In this document: one piece after another, positions 3,448 through 41,441 of the stretch
Position numbering within the stretch: position 1 is the first letter of the stretch
Layout: the number at the start of each line of letters is the position of its first letter
DNA from: Bacillota bacterium
Lineage (GTDB): Bacteria; Bacillota; Clostridia; Acetivibrionales; JAMNXU01
Length of the DNA: 64,000 bases
Assembly: GCA_023623175.1 (NCBI GenBank)
Contig: JAMNXU010000006.1
Span: forward strand, 1 to 64,000
Direction of reading: 5' to 3'
Position numbers and translations under genes: made by a program
Notes under the pieces: model-generated
What the model saw: only the letters and a program-made list of their open reading frames with translations
Databases searched by the model: none
Told to the model about the DNA's origin: nothing

Positions 3448-4866
3448 TCAATCATGTCCAATCATTTTCCGCAGCAATGCTTCGGCCTTGCGAATATCTG
3501 CCTTACCGCCGGTTTTCTTCATAATGAAGCCAAACATAACGTTGATGGCCTTGTCTTTACCGTTCCTGACGTCGGCTACCGCTTTAGGATTAGCATCAAA
3601 GGCTTCCCTGCACAAGCTTTCCAGCTCTTCATCGGAGATACCCGCAAGATCCTCGGGCTTAATAAACTCATCGACTGATTTGCCGCTTTCGAGCATCTTC
3701 TGCAGAGTGCCCTGGGCAACCCCATAATTGATTTTTTTCTCATCGAGGAGCCGTACAAGCTCGGCAAACTGGTCAGCAGAAATCCTGACGGCAAACAGTT
3801 CCTTTTCCTCCTCGGTATTCATGTGGGAAAAAATCGTACCGACAATCAGGTTAGCCGCGTTTTTAACGCTCGCGCCCCCGGCCAGCGTGCCTTCGAAAAA
3901 TTCCGCCACCTTCCTGTACCTGGAAATCTGCCTTGCCGTGGCTTCGGGAAGCCCCAGGTCATTCACGTATCGCCTGAGCTTGTCAAAGGGCAGCTCGGGC
4001 AGGGATGCCCGGATTTCTTCTATCTTATCCTCATCGATGCAGAATCTCAAAATATCGGGATCAGGGAAATAGCGGTAATCATCTGAATTCTCCTTATCAC
4101 GCATGGGGGCTACACTATTGGTTGCCTCGTCGTAACGCATGGTCTGCTGGACAATGGTTCCCCCTGCATCAAGAATATCAGCCTGCCGTTCTGCCTCGGC
4201 CATGACGGCCTTTTGAATAAAACTCAGGGAGTTGATATTCTTAATTTCGGTTCTCACGCCAAAATTGGGATCTCCGGGCTTTCGCAGCGAAAGGTTGACA
4301 TCGCAGCGCATGGATCCTTCCTGCATCTTGCAGTCCGATATTCCGATATAGCGCATGATCAGCTGCAGCTTTTCGGCATACTCCCTTGCTTCCTCGGCAG
4401 AAGAAATATCGGGCTCTGAAACAATCTCTATCAGCGGGACACCGCTGCGGTTGTAATCAATGTAGGTGTACCCATTCTCATGGATGAGTTTTCCGGCATC
4501 TTCCTCGATATGAATGCGCGTAATGCCGATCCGCTTGCCGCTGTCCAGCTCAATATATCCATTTTCGCAGAGGGGCTCATCATACTGCGATATCTGGTAA
4601 GCTTTGGGCAAATCGGGATATACGTAATTTTTCCGGTCCATGTGGGACCTGGTGTTAATTTTGCAGTTCAGCGCGAGGCCGGCCCTGATGGCATACTCCA
4701 CCACTTTTTGGTTCAGGATGGGCAAAGATCCCGGCTGCCCGGTGCAAACGGGACAGCAGTGGGTATTGGGCTCTCCCCCGAACTCCGTGGTACAGCCGCA
4801 GAAAATCTTGGTCCTCGTTGCCAGCTCAATATGGGTTTCAATGCCGCAGACAATTTCATAATTCAT
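3448..4866 (-). CDS. gatB: Asp-tRNA(Asn)/Glu-tRNA(Gln) amidotransferase subunit B
   Basis: GatB is the kinase/tRNA-binding subunit of the GatCAB amidotransferase. It activates Asp or Glu carried on misacylated tRNA and receives ammonia from GatA. The 472-residue length is normal. Near the N terminus CGIETHIELATRTKIFCG is followed by CCPVCTGQPGSLP, which supplies the zinc-binding cysteines. The YatY-like C-terminal tail domain is intact (ending GGKADIRKAEALLRKMI). Its start overlaps the gatA stop by 4 nt (ATGA), implying translational coupling. It is the last gene of the T-box-controlled aspS-gatC-gatA-gatB operon and is followed by a terminator. Confidence 0.97.
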   Translation of the reverse strand: MNYEIVCGIETHIELATRTKIFCGCTTEFGGEPNTHCCPVCTGQPGSLPILNQKVVEYAIRAGLALNCKINTRSHMDRKNYVYPDLPKAYQISQYDEPLCENGYIELDSGKRIGITRIHIEEDAGKLIHENGYTYIDYNRSGVPLIEIVSEPDISSAEEAREYAEKLQLIMRYIGISDCKMQEGSMRCDVNLSLRKPGDPNFGVRTEIKNINSLSFIQKAVMAEAERQADILDAGGTIVQQTMRYDEATNSVAPMRDKENSDDYRYFPDPDILRFCIDEDKIEEIRASLPELPFDKLRRYVNDLGLPEATARQISRYRKVAEFFEGTLAGGASVKNAANLIVGTIFSHMNTEEEKELFAVRISADQFAELVRLLDEKKINYGVAQGTLQKMLESGKSVDEFIKPEDLAGISDEELESLCREAFDANPKAVADVRNGKDKAINVMFGFIMKKTGGKADIRKAEALLRKMIGHD

Positions 4867-6323
4867 ATCCCGGCACCTCCTTCATAATCGCCAAGCACTT
4901 TTCCGGCACTCTGCTCATAAAAATGCGCCACCTGAAGAACCGTCGCCTCACCAAATCTCCTGCCGATAATCTGCATTCCTATGGGTAGTCCCCTGGCGTC
5001 CTCCCCACAGGGAACAGAAATGGCCGGGACACCTGCAATATTGACAGGCACGGTGCAAATATCCGACAGGTACATCTCAACCGGGCCTGAGCCCCTGTAA
5101 TTCAGTGGGAACGCCGTATTGGGCGCCGTAGGAGCAATAAGCACGTCGCATTTTTCAAAAACGGCATCAAATTCCCGGTTTATCTCTTCCCGGATCAGGC
5201 AGGCTTTCTTGTAGTAAGCATCATAATAGCCGCTGGACAGCACGTAGGTTCCCAGCATGATGCGGCGTTTAACTTCGTCGCCAAATCCTTCGTTCCTGGT
5301 CTTTACAATCATGTCATCAATGCTGGTATAGGATGACGCGCGATGCCCGTAACGGATGCCGTCGTACCGTCCGAGGTTGGAAGACGCTTCGGCGCAGGCA
5401 ATGATATAATATACGGGAAGCGCAATTTTCAGGGCTGGGAACCTGAGGTTTTCTACCACGGCACCGTTTCTTTCCAGGAGTTTTATTGCATCTTCAATCT
5501 TTGCCTTAATTTCAGGATTGATTCCGTCAAAGAATTCTTCGGCCACACCTATACGAACGCCCTTAACATCCCGGTCAAGGCATTCAGCGAGGGACGAACC
5601 ATAATCATAATCCACGCTGGTCTGGTCACGTTTGTCGCCGCCTTTGATAGCATCGAAAACAATGGCTGCGTCCTTCACGCTGTTTGCCAGGGGGCCGATC
5701 TGGTCCAGGGAACTGCCGTAAGCGATGAGCCCGTAGCGGGATACCGCTCCATAGGTGGGTTTAAGTCCCACCACGCCGCAGAAGGAAGCCGGCTGGCGAA
5801 TGGAACCGCCCGTATCCGAGCCCAGGCTGTATACCGCAAGATTTGCGCAAACGGCTGCAGCGGAACCACCCGAAGAACCGCCGGTAACATAGTTCGTGTT
5901 CCTGGGATTCAGCGGCGCCCCATAGCAGCTGGTTTCCGAAGTGCTTCCCATCGCAAACTCATCCATGTTGGTCTTGCCCAGGAGCACTGCGCCAAGGGCT
6001 TTCAGCTTTTCCCAGGCTGTGGCATCATAGTAGGGCCTGAAGTCTTTCAGGATCCTGGAACAGCAGGTAGTAGGAAGCCCGTCAGTGCAGATATTGTCCT
6101 TCAGGGCCATGGGAATGCCGCAGAGCAGCGGCGCATCGTCCTCCTTAAGCCTTTGGTCCGCCTGCTCAGCAGCCTCCAGGGCGGTATCGAAGGTCAGGTG
6201 CACGTAAGCATTTAGCGTTGGATTCAGTTTTTCGATGGCTTCGATGTACGCCTTCGTCAGCTCCACCGCGGAAATTTCGCGGCTGCGAAGCCTTTTGGCC
6301 AGTTCAGGTATCCGTGCTTTCAT
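4863..6323 (-). CDS. gatA: Asp-tRNA(Asn)/Glu-tRNA(Gln) amidotransferase subunit A
   Basis: GatA is the glutaminase subunit of GatCAB and releases ammonia from glutamine for the GatB active site. The 486 residues carry the amidase-signature triad: Lys in PMALKDNIC (near 79), cis-Ser in the TGGSSGGSAAA segment (near 155), and the nucleophile Ser in GSDTGGSIRQPASF (near 178). The start at 6323 overlaps the gatC stop by 4 nt and the stop overlaps the gatB start by 4 nt, so the three subunits are coupled. In this operon the likely main product is Asn-tRNA(Asn), because the leader senses tRNA-Asn. Confidence 0.97.
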   Translation of the reverse strand: MKARIPELAKRLRSREISAVELTKAYIEAIEKLNPTLNAYVHLTFDTALEAAEQADQRLKEDDAPLLCGIPMALKDNICTDGLPTTCCSRILKDFRPYYDATAWEKLKALGAVLLGKTNMDEFAMGSTSETSCYGAPLNPRNTNYVTGGSSGGSAAAVCANLAVYSLGSDTGGSIRQPASFCGVVGLKPTYGAVSRYGLIAYGSSLDQIGPLANSVKDAAIVFDAIKGGDKRDQTSVDYDYGSSLAECLDRDVKGVRIGVAEEFFDGINPEIKAKIEDAIKLLERNGAVVENLRFPALKIALPVYYIIACAEASSNLGRYDGIRYGHRASSYTSIDDMIVKTRNEGFGDEVKRRIMLGTYVLSSGYYDAYYKKACLIREEINREFDAVFEKCDVLIAPTAPNTAFPLNYRGSGPVEMYLSDICTVPVNIAGVPAISVPCGEDARGLPIGMQIIGRRFGEATVLQVAHFYEQSAGKVLGDYEGGAGI

Positions 6324-6613
6324 TTTTTACTCCTTTCCAGGCTGAAAAACCCGTTATATCCTTCAACATTGGAAAGGATTTTTTCACTGGGCAGGGACGG
6401 CATCACCTCGTCGGGGCGCAGGTCGTCGAATGAAACCATCCTGGCCCCCACGCTTCTTATCTGATCAGTCCCTCCCTCGATGGATTGGTTGATGGTATCT
6501 GCAAAGGCTATAATCTCATCAAATTCAGCCGTAAACCGCTCAAGCTCTTCATCCGAGAAGCTCAGCCTCGCAAGTTTTGCGAGCTTTTCTATCTCGGTTT
6601 TTGAAATTGCCAT
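6320..6613 (-). CDS. gatC: Asp-tRNA(Asn)/Glu-tRNA(Gln) amidotransferase subunit C
   Basis: GatC is the small subunit that wraps around GatA and helps assemble GatCAB. The typical opening ISKTEIEKLAKLARLSFSDEE is followed by FDEIIAFADTINQ and the tail LRPDEVMPSL. I chose ATG 6613 (MAISKTEIEK, 97 residues), with GGGGTGAG just upstream. A GTG at 6622 in the same frame is possible but would sit inside that Shine-Dalgarno sequence. It lies about 130 nt after aspS, separated by a degenerate AT-rich repeat, and overlaps gatA by 4 nt. Confidence 0.94.
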   Translation of the reverse strand: MAISKTEIEKLAKLARLSFSDEELERFTAEFDEIIAFADTINQSIEGGTDQIRSVGARMVSFDDLRPDEVMPSLPSEKILSNVEGYNGFFSLERSKK

Positions 6614-6654: not shown

Positions 6655-6760
6655 GCCCGGATGGTTCAACTAACCCGGATTATTCCAACACGGCTTATTC
6701 GTGATTTAATCCAAACACGCTTATTCCTAATTTAATTTAACCACATTTAATTCCTGATTT
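6655..6760. repeat. Degenerate tandem repeat in the aspS-gatC spacer
   Basis: About three diverged units of roughly 26 bp share ACACG-CTTATTC-TAATTTAAT. This fills almost the whole spacer inside the operon and runs to the aspS stop codon. Confidence 0.5.
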
Positions 6761-8492
6761 TAATATGCACCTCACGCAGCTGCTGCTCGGTCACTTCGCT
6801 GGGCGCTCCGCACATCAGGTCCTGCGCGTTGCTGTTCATGGGGAAGGTTACGACCTCGCGGATGTTTTCCTCATTCCGAAGGAGCATGATAATCCGCTCA
6901 ATGCCGGGAGCCATACCGGCATGGGGCGGCGCCCCGTACTGAAATGCATTATACAGCGCTCCGAATTTCTTTTTCAAGGTCTCCTCATCGTAACCCGCAA
7001 TTTCAAATGCCTTCACCATTATATCCAGGTCATGGTTCCGAACCGCGCCCGAGGAAAGCTCAACACCGTTACATACGATATCGTACTGGTAAGCCAGGAT
7101 CTCCAGCGGATTCCTGGTAGTAAGCGCCTCCAGCCCACCCTGCGGCATGGAGAAGGGGTTGTGGGTAAATTGTATTTTCCCGGTTGCCTCATCTATTTCA
7201 TACATCGGAAAATCATTGACATAACAGAAGCGATAAGCCTTTTTCTCGCAGAGGTCAAGGCGCTTGCCCAGCTCATTTCGGATGAGCCCCGCGTACTTGT
7301 TGGCAAGTTTTTCCTTGTCAGCAATGAAGAATATGACATCGCCGGGAACAAGTCCGGCAATCTGCGCCAGCTCCCCCTTGATTTCCACGGGGATGTACTT
7401 GTCAATGGGCCCTTTATAGGTCATATCCTCCTGCACCTCAAGATAGCCTAGCCCGCCCATGCCGATGGACAGTGCGTACTCCAGCAGCTTTTCATGGAAG
7501 CCCTTGGACATTTCGGCATGGACCTTAATGGCCCTGACCGTCTTGTTATGGAAGGGTTTGAAGGAGCATTTCCGGAAGAAATCGGTCACGTCGATGATGC
7601 GCAGGGGATTGCGCAGGTCCGGCTTGTCTGTGCCGAACTCCAGCATGGCCTGCCTGTAGCTGAAAACCGGGAATGGCGGCTCGGTAACCGAATACCCTCC
7701 TGGCGCAAACTTTTTGAAGGTTGCAGCCAGCACCTCCTCGCCCACGCGGAAAACGTCTTCCTGGGTTGCAAAGCTCATTTCGAAGTCGAGCTGATAAAAT
7801 TCGCCCGGGGAGCGGTCGGCACGCGCGTCCTCGTCACGGAAGCAGGGGGCAATCTGAAAATACTTGTCAAAGCCCGAAACCATCAGCAACTGCTTATATA
7901 TCTGGGGCGCCTGGGGCAGTGCATAAAATTTCCCTTTATGTTTTCTCGACGGAACGATATAATCCCTTGCGCCCTCGGGAGAAGATACCGACAAAATCGG
8001 TGTCTGAATTTCGACAAAGCCCATCTCGGTCATCTTCTGCCTCAAAAAGCTGATGACCTGGGAACGGAACAGGATATTTTCCTTTACCTTCCGGTTCCTC
8101 AAATCAAGGTAACGGTATTTGAGGCGCACTTCCTCACGGGTTTCCCTCGAGGTGGCGATTTCAAACGGCAAATCCCTGAAGACCCGGCCCAAAACCGTGA
8201 CCTTTTGCGCCGACAGCTCAATGGTGCCCGTGGGAATCTTGGGATTGTAGGTTTCTTCATCCCGTTTTTCCACCACGCCCTCAATGGATACGCATTCTTC
8301 CTTCCTTATACCTTTTGGAAGCTCGATGTTCTTGAATACCACCTGCATGACACCGTACATGTCCCTGAGGTCAATAAAGGACACGCCGCCGTGGTCCCGG
8401 ATGTTTTCCACCCATCCGGCGATCCTGATGAAGCTGCCGATATCTTTTTCGGTAATTTGATTCATTGTCTTGGTACGATAAATTTCCGACAT
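6747..8492 (-). CDS. aspS: Aspartyl-tRNA synthetase, probably non-discriminating (Asp/Asn)
   Basis: This is a bacterial-type class IIb synthetase of 581 residues with an N-terminal OB-fold anticodon domain (GWVENIRDHGGVSFIDLRD near 29-47), motif 2 (FRDEDARADRSPGEF) and motif 3 (GIERIIMLL near the C terminus). The GAD insertion domain is present in the middle. I chose ATG 8492 (MSEIYRTKTM) with GGGAG 6 nt upstream; in-frame codons further upstream belong to the T-box leader. Co-transcription with gatCAB under a leader that reads an Asn codon implies it charges both tRNA-Asp and tRNA-Asn with Asp, the latter for amidation. That specificity is inferred from context, not from residues. Confidence 0.95.
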   Translation of the reverse strand: MSEIYRTKTMNQITEKDIGSFIRIAGWVENIRDHGGVSFIDLRDMYGVMQVVFKNIELPKGIRKEECVSIEGVVEKRDEETYNPKIPTGTIELSAQKVTVLGRVFRDLPFEIATSRETREEVRLKYRYLDLRNRKVKENILFRSQVISFLRQKMTEMGFVEIQTPILSVSSPEGARDYIVPSRKHKGKFYALPQAPQIYKQLLMVSGFDKYFQIAPCFRDEDARADRSPGEFYQLDFEMSFATQEDVFRVGEEVLAATFKKFAPGGYSVTEPPFPVFSYRQAMLEFGTDKPDLRNPLRIIDVTDFFRKCSFKPFHNKTVRAIKVHAEMSKGFHEKLLEYALSIGMGGLGYLEVQEDMTYKGPIDKYIPVEIKGELAQIAGLVPGDVIFFIADKEKLANKYAGLIRNELGKRLDLCEKKAYRFCYVNDFPMYEIDEATGKIQFTHNPFSMPQGGLEALTTRNPLEILAYQYDIVCNGVELSSGAVRNHDLDIMVKAFEIAGYDEETLKKKFGALYNAFQYGAPPHAGMAPGIERIIMLLRNEENIREVVTFPMNSNAQDLMCGAPSEVTEQQLREVHIKIRN

Positions 8493-8551: not shown

Positions 8552-8604
8552 AAAAAAGCTGCTCGCCCGAAATATCCGAATAACAGAATATCAGGGCGAA
8601 CAGC
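8552..8604 (-). terminator. T-box regulatory terminator upstream of aspS
   Basis: On the minus strand GCTGTTCGCCCTGA pairs with TTCGGGCGAGCAGC and is followed by TTTTTT (8552-8557). Its 5' arm overlaps the sequence that would form the antiterminator with the T-box motif at 8619-8634, the standard on/off arrangement. Confidence 0.9.
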
Positions 8605-8853
8605 ATTGCTATCGTCCGCGGTACCACCTGAATTACTGTACTCCATTGTACAGTCACTCCTTAGTGTTTGCCGTTGTAACGTACGGCGTTACGTCGCACC
8701 TACTAATCATATGCACGTGCAATATGACTTTCGGATTGAGGCTGGTGAAGTGTTATTCGCATGAATTCACTTTACAGGGTTCTCACCATTCCCCGCTCAC
8801 TGTGAACGATAATTCATGCTACTCCTCTTCGTCATCGCCTTGATATATAATTT
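8552..8853 (-). promoter_or_regulatory. T-box: T-box leader with Asn (AAC) specifier controlling aspS-gatCAB
   Basis: Minus-strand leader RNA. The conserved T-box block AGGUGGUACCGCGGA is at about 8617-8631. The AG-rich Stem I element GGGGAAUGGUGAGAACCC is near 8780-8797. The helix above the specifier loop is exact: GCAUGAAUU (8811-8819) pairs with AAUUCAUGC (8759-8767). The 3' side of the specifier loop reads GAAUAACA before CUUC. Placing the codon in the usual GAA-N-codon-A context gives AAC (8752-8754), an Asn codon; GAA (Glu) sits at 8756-8758. The gene encodes AspRS, but no Asp codon is in the loop. Uncharged tRNA-Asn should stabilise the antiterminator and turn the transamidation operon on. 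Confidence 0.93.
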
Positions 8854-8860
8854 GCTATAT

Positions 8861-8890
8861 ATTCTAATATACATTAATTTGTCCTGTCAA
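8861..8890 (-). promoter_or_regulatory. Promoter of the aspS-gatCAB operon
   Basis: On the minus strand TTGACA (8885-8890) is followed after 18 bp by TAGAAT (8861-8866). Transcription would start near 8853, just at the 5' end of Stem I. This matches the sigma-A consensus at 11 of 12 positions. Confidence 0.7.
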
Positions 8891-16189: not shown

Positions 16190-16281
16190 AGGACAAGGGA
16201 ACCGTCCCTGTGTACCAGGGCTGGGACAAGGGAACCGTCCCCGTGTCCCAACCTGGGACAGGAGAACCGTCCCCGTGTCCC
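16190..16281 (-). repeat. GGGACA-family array D (3 units, -), inside the ABC operon
   Basis: Units are at 16190-16216, 16223-16249 and 16255-16281. The array lies between the permease stop (16328) and the ATPase start (16072). In the mRNA it reads in the G-U-pairing orientation, so it could form a hairpin ladder between the two cistrons. Confidence 0.92.
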
Positions 16282-24332: not shown

Positions 24333-24435
24333 GGGACACGGGCGCGGGACACGGGGACGGTTCTCTTGTCCCAATCCCGGGACACGGGGACGGTTCTCTT
24401 GTCCCGGCATGCATGGGGACCGTTCTCTTTCCAGG
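24333..24435 (+). repeat. GGGACA-family array G (3-4 units, +)
   Basis: There is a partial unit at 24333-24345, full units at 24346-24372 and 24379-24405, and a decayed one at 24412-24435. It lies upstream of the flavodiiron gene, antisense to it, and faces array H across 75 bp. Confidence 0.92.
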
Positions 24436-24510
24436 AGAAGTCAGATCCTGAAAATGTGTGCTCAAGGCAAAATTTACCCAAGTGGTTGAAAATTTTCAGC
24501 CATATCAAAT

Positions 24511-24590
24511 GGGACACAGGAACCGTCCCCGTGTCCTAGGAACCGTCCCCATGTCCCACCCATGGTACGCAGGAACCGTCCCCGTGTCCC
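24511..24590 (-). repeat. GGGACA-family array H (3 units, -)
   Basis: Units are at 24511-24537, 24538-24557 (partial) and 24564-24590, all of the symmetric CAGGAACCG subtype. The array lies 28 bp after the TetR stop and in sense orientation to it. Confidence 0.92.
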
Positions 24591-41158: not shown

Positions 41159-41250
41159 GGTGACACGGGGACGGTTCTCCTGTCCCGCATTGGGACACGG
41201 GGACGGTTCTCCTGTCCCAATTTGGGACAAGGGGACGGTTCTCTTGTCCC
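41159..41250 (+). repeat. GGGACA-family array L (3 units, +)
   Basis: Units are at 41159-41186, 41192-41218 and 41224-41250. It faces array M across 84 bp. Confidence 0.93.
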
Positions 41251-41334
41251 ATTTGGCAAATTATAGTTAATGCTCATGGCTGAGTACTTCTTCCTTTTGA
41301 TAGGAATTGCTTCATGCACAAAATTTTTATCCTT

Positions 41335-41441
41335 GGGACACAGGAACCGTCCCTCTGTCCCTCCTCAGACGCAGGAACCGTCCCCGTGTCCCACCAGGAA
41401 CGTCCCCGTGTCCCACCCAGGTTGGAATCGTCCCTCTGTCC
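41335..41441 (-). repeat. GGGACA-family array M (4 units, -)
   Basis: Units are at 41335-41361, 41366-41392, 41396-41414 (short) and 41421-41441 (diverged), with the CAGGAACCG subtype dominant. It lies about 100 bp upstream of the glycyl radical enzyme gene. Confidence 0.9.

Follow-up and report, generated by a model that had tools for sequence, protein, structure and literature searches.

Which transfer RNA (tRNA) is sensed by a T-box leader whose operon begins with an aspartyl-tRNA synthetase (AspRS) gene and continues with the genes of GatCAB? The question is raised by a leader on the minus strand of contig JAMNXU010000006.1 from a Bacillota bacterium (assembly GCA_023623175.1), upstream of aspS-gatC-gatA-gatB in a stretch of 64,000 nucleotides that was analysed as a whole and is called the window below. 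From RNA architecture, specifier conservation, gene content and tRNA sequences we infer, with high confidence, that this is a class I transcriptional T-box with a single specifier, AAC, which reads tRNA-Asn(GUU) and controls a transamidation operon. An earlier, sequence-only reading had described the leader as a T-box of an AspRS-GatCAB operon, and this was confirmed: the Rfam covariance model RF00230 matches the minus strand at 8844-8589 over its full length (1-219) with 100.9 bits, against a gathering score of 93 (E 4.4e-21), and the genes were identified by NCBIfam. The same reading had correctly located the octamer GAAUAACA at 8758-8751, on the 3' side of the specifier loop. With 3 occurrences in the window against 2.52 expected, the octamer is not rare by itself, and the idea that it is unusual was rejected. 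What sets the leader above chance is the match to the covariance model together with conservation among relatives, not the octamer count.

In the alignment to RF00230, Stem I (8740-8839, minus strand, as are all features of the leader) comprises a K-turn base, the specifier loop and a distal part. AGUA, the 5' half of the Loop E or S-turn motif, lies at 8820-8823, its 3' half, GAA, at 8756-8758, and the specifier AAC at 8752-8754. Stem II, which likewise contains GAA/AGUA, is followed by the IIA/B and Stem III region, the whole spanning approximately 8634-8738. The antiterminator (8591-8631; folded segment -12.8 kcal/mol) carries UGGU, the pairing site for the NCCA end of a tRNA, at 8623-8626. 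An intrinsic terminator occupies 8552-8604, with its stem at 8604-8558, a U-tract at 8557-8552 and a fold of -28.0 kcal/mol; the two folds overlap at 8604-8591 and are mutually exclusive. A promoter-like site, TTGACA-18-TAGAAT (8861-8890), matches the consensus at 11 of 12 positions but is weak evidence, with one such site found against 1.6 expected in shuffles.

The 3' side of the specifier loop reads GAA-U-AAC-A ahead of the lower helix in the covariance alignment, and AAC (8754-8752) occupies the specifier position of the model, as the sequence-only reading had held. Conservation was followed in 80 relatives, taken from one AspRS scan and belonging mostly to Lachnospiraceae and other clostridia; of its own genus and family, only this genome appeared in the searches. 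The motif GGTGGNAC is found upstream in 71 of the 80. Leaders were assigned by motif classes, as automatic stem finders misplaced many loops, and the 81 leaders (with the window) comprise 37 canonical, 29 variant, 6 unresolved by motif and 9 without the motif. The six are L061, at a contig end, the variant-like L120, L130 and L132, and the diverged L134 and L139; among the nine, L131 lies at a contig end. All 37 canonical leaders (36 relatives and the window) contain AAC, whereas the base on its 5' side is not fixed, being U in 30, A in 4 and G in 3. Stem I pairing is retained with two-sided changes in an alignment of 33 of these leaders, from which L069, L087, L088 and L115 were excluded as over-long after automatic trimming.

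The genome itself provides a control. Its 16 T-boxes were aligned, the specifier position was read by eye and the downstream genes were named. For 13 of them the neighbouring gene is informative, and in 11 of the 13 that gene agrees with the triplet read at the standard position: valS, trpE, pheS, ileS, glyS, serS, cysE and thrS, as well as gltX-glnS read as Gln, ilvC as Leu and a citramalate/isopropylmalate-type synthase as Ile. In the T-box before gltX-glnS (G000:C20:197778-198043, minus strand; L011) the triplet at the standard position is CAG (Gln). Applied to the window, the position rule gives AAC, which matches the downstream non-discriminating-type AspRS and GatCAB. An ordinary aspS T-box would read tRNA-Asp, and the first gene of this operon does encode AspRS. 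However, the loop contains neither GAC nor GAU, an absence already pointed out from the sequence alone, and the invariant AAC extends to 31 leaders whose aspS lacks gat genes, so that a tRNA-Asp reading retains next to no probability.

The GAA triplet in the same loop raised another possibility, namely that the leader additionally reads tRNA-Glu, as in a report on Clostridium acetobutylicum, where the shift between the Glu and Asn codons is reportedly one base (attributed to Saad, 2013). GAA does occur in the loop, each of the three tRNA-Glu genes has an A73 with which the U of UGGU makes a Watson-Crick pair, and the operon under control is an AspRS-GatCAB one. A possible rationale is offered by AspRS enzymes, including non-discriminating ones, that can form Glu-tRNA-Glu (excerpt of PMC6523644). 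Yet AGUA facing GAA constitutes the Loop E motif, which most T-box RNAs have both in Stem II and in the specifier loop, according to a paper on alaS T-boxes (excerpt of PMC4695836). In the window, AGUA at 8823-8820 faces GAA at 8758-8756, and GAA stands at the equivalent place in 14 of the 16 own-genome T-boxes; it is a structural half of the S-turn, not a codon. The sequence-only reading was right that GAA stands beside AAC but wrong to call the two overlapping: they have no base in common, with U8755 between them. Shifting AAC by one base yields UAA or ACA, and the shift from GAA to AAC is four bases. Only 3 of the 37 canonical leaders have GAAC, in which a Glu triplet begins one base ahead of AAC, and leaders with UGGC are unable to pair with A73 of tRNA-Glu(UUC). 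Because of the identity of the motif, the reading frame and the UGGC leaders, Glu was rejected as a second codon, and the proposed kinship to a two-codon Asn and Glu T-box lost its support; that the loop also reads tRNA-Glu is very improbable. This decides the reading of such loops: GAA beside the specifier belongs to the S-turn, and Glu co-specificity need be considered only where GAA overlaps the specifier.

Several observations nevertheless weigh against a tRNA-Asn leader of this kind. The alaS T-box of the same genome deviates from the position rule by one base, with GCA directly after GAA, and the proS T-box, which lacks a canonical loop, is a second exception; the rule is reliable without being perfect. 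UGGU only wobbles with G73 of tRNA-Asn, yet forms a Watson-Crick pair with A73 of tRNA-Glu. AsnRS, AsnA, AsnB and GlnRS, all encoded in the genome, make the operon look dispensable. Finally, 31 of the 35 canonical relatives for which this could be determined have no gat genes after aspS. As to the first point, a shift like that of alaS would yield UAA in the window loop, which is not a sense codon. In the alaS T-box itself (L003:1501-1709; loop GAAGCAGA), the standard position holds CAG (Gln), which GCA (Ala) overlaps, making this leader a better site than the window to seek frame ambiguity.

The acceptor end can be followed through the tRNA genes. In this genome (tRNA-Ile was absent from the tRNAs recovered), tRNA-Asn has G73 in three of three genes, tRNA-Glu has A73 in three of three, and tRNA-Gln and tRNA-Asp have G73. 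The U of UGGU (8626-8623) would therefore wobble with tRNA-Asn, as anticipated by the sequence-only reading. The same U-G73 wobble occurs in the genome's Trp and Gln T-boxes, whereas its Ser T-box uses C and the Gly, Cys and Thr T-boxes use A, as expected. Among the canonical leaders, 29 of 37 have UGGU and 8 of 37 have UGGC, which pairs fully with G73. In 19 relatives' genomes whose tRNAs were read, tRNA-Asn was recovered in 10, always with G73, and tRNA-Glu(UUC) in 12, always with A73; some copies of tRNA-Glu(CUC), the isoacceptor that reads GAG, carry G73. A UGGC leader is present in nine of the 19. For five of the nine, of which four have a canonical AAC leader and one (L134) a leader of unresolved class, tRNA-Asn and tRNA-Glu(UUC) could both be read. 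In those five the C can pair with G73 of tRNA-Asn, not with A73 of tRNA-Glu(UUC).

Uncharged tRNA-Asn would thus pair through its anticodon with AAC and through its GCCA end with UGGU, including the G73-U wobble. This pairing would stabilise the antiterminator and let RNA polymerase read into aspS-gatCAB, whose products would put Asp on tRNA-Asn and then amidate it to Asn; with charged tRNA-Asn, the terminator would form. Bacterial GatCAB recognises the U1-A72 pair of tRNA-Asn (excerpt of PMC4206432), and this pair is present in two of the three own-genome tRNA-Asn genes. The third tRNA-Asn(GUU) (L044:58-132, minus strand, and L207) has G1-C72 and would be expected to escape GatCAB. It lies on a phage-like contig with open reading frames that, by eye, are terminase-, portal- and capsid-like.

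The gene order aspS-gatC-gatA-gatB was borne out by NCBIfam, all four genes lying on the minus strand: aspS at 6747-8492 (PRK00476, 747 bits), gatC at 6320-6613 (TIGR00135, 47.5 bits, barely above the cut-off of 47.1), gatA at 4863-6323 (TIGR00132, 616.8 bits) and gatB, the genome's only gatB match, at 3448-4866 (TIGR00133, 516.4 bits). The window AspRS and those of all 80 relatives have the sequence RDHGG. In the five PDB alignments printed, RDHGG occurs in three chains named tRNA(Asp/Asn) ligase and in a fourth named aspartate--tRNA ligase, and RDLGG in the fifth, a tRNA(Asp) ligase; the genome's second AspRS has RNLGG, close to the RDLGG of that chain. We take this position to mark the tRNA specificity of AspRS, by which the window enzyme would be of the non-discriminating type. 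On TIGR00133 the window GatB reaches 516 bits and those of L062 and L063 are alike, against 567-605 bits in most of the relatives checked; the window protein perhaps represents a separate GatCAB lineage.

The earlier proposal that the operon serves tRNA-dependent Asn synthesis is supported by the non-discriminating-type AspRS and by GatCAB, but only as one of several routes, with asnS, asnA, asnB, glnS and a second aspS in the genome. AsnRS scores 643.9 bits and GlnRS 802.7 bits; AsnA, whose gene adjoins that of AsnRS, and AsnB are each above the cut-off and free of stops. On this gene content, GatCAB is therefore presumably unneeded for Gln-tRNA or as the sole source of Asn. The operon as the only Asn route was rejected, and it appears to be redundant.

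The link between leader and gat genes differs by leader class. Gat genes lie 3' of aspS in all 28 variant loci for which this could be determined, against 4 of 35 such canonical relatives (Fisher p 6e-14, kinship not corrected; in either class a contig end truncates one further locus), and the window belongs to the small canonical group with gat genes. Since the great majority of canonical relatives are gat-less, the T-box goes with AspRS rather than with GatCAB. Genomes were checked for 32 of the 80 relatives, with AsnRS above the cut-off in 18 and gatB in 30. Nine of the 16 canonical gat-less genomes among them are without AsnRS above the cut-off, although many are drafts and absence is weak evidence; gatB is found elsewhere in 15 of the 16, and G012 gives a fragment match only. 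An Asn specifier thus accompanies the non-discriminating-type AspRS, including at loci whose operon lacks gatCAB.

The variant leaders upstream of aspS (L067, L070, L073, L075, L077, L081 and others) have no AGUA/GAA S-turn. Their AAC sits in a 1-by-4 internal loop, with A opposite AACA, between GGAG/CUCC and CUC/GGG helices. An alignment of 32 sequences combined the 29 variants with L120, L130 and L132, and excluded L134 and L139 as too diverged. For the ten pairs tested that flank the loop, the share of cells with a standard pair is 96.6%; it averages 92.2% over 500 shuffles, all of which stay lower, and does not exceed 65.9% in any of six slid versions. The G preceding AAC is paired in 32 of 32. 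Because few two-sided changes occur in the pairs adjoining the loop, this support is mostly conservation. All seven variant loci tested on RF00230 score 54-82 bits, below the gathering score. In the literature searched, which was covered short of full text, we recognised no description of such an S-turn-less AAC loop.

One further pattern in the window leader involves the terminator. Its loop, UGUUAUUCG (terminator 8604-8558), is an exact 9-nucleotide complement of CGAAUAACA in the specifier loop (8759-8751), a length reached in 38 of 20000 trials when the terminator segment was shuffled by single bases, and it has CUGUUA in common with the tRNA-Asn anticodon loop. One may speculate that the finished terminator mimics an anticodon, so that its loop could kiss and close the specifier loop. 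However, the complement is not retained in L062 and L063, which are 91% identical (best match 4 in each), and L061 (also 91%) has a terminator that lacks UGUUAUUCG, while the contig stops short of its specifier loop. A match of 9 was sought in 12 of the 16 own-genome T-boxes and occurs only in that of the window, and the complement was one of several patterns looked at. Because the nearest relatives lack the complement, it was judged to be chance, and an anticodon mimic is most doubtful. Hardly more credible is a lineage-specific, self-mimicking T-box whose built-in copy of the tRNA-Asn anticodon locks a terminated or late transcript against tRNA-Asn.

Elsewhere in the window there is a glmS ribozyme (1103-946, minus strand, 107.1 bits). 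The sequence GAACCGTCCC occurs 38 times against 0.14 expected, for example at 1269-1388, 16199-16273, 24354-24582 and 41168-41384. Most copies are grouped into small clusters with spacings of about 20-42 bases, on both strands, and form interspersed repeat arrays.

Compared with known systems, the leader is an unremarkable further instance of an established class. It has the K-turn, the AGUA/GAA S-turn loop, Stem II, IIA/B, UGGN antiterminator and terminator of class I transcriptional RF00230 members and differs in nothing essential, its UGGU wobbling with G73. The C. acetobutylicum T-box of the transamidation operon (Saad, 2012 and 2013) reportedly also precedes AspRS and GatCAB and has an Asn codon, in a genome with AsnRS, more than one AspRS and a comparable redundancy of Asn routes (excerpts of PMC4052509 and PMC4206432; title of Saad, 2012). 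AsnB is reported there as split, in contrast to the AsnA and AsnB found here, and unlike in its two-codon leader, GAA and AAC are here without overlap. The non-discriminating AspRS/GatCAB systems of Bdellovibrio, Deinococcus and Thermus (excerpt of PMC4206432) likewise combine AsnRS, GlnRS and GatCAB with a U1-A72 tRNA-Asn, but Bdellovibrio is without AsnA and AsnB, whereas the present genome has both. Beside these systems, the present locus stands as a clear case of an Asn T-box in front of a redundant transamidation operon; AsnRS, AsnA, AsnB and GlnRS are encoded in the same genome.
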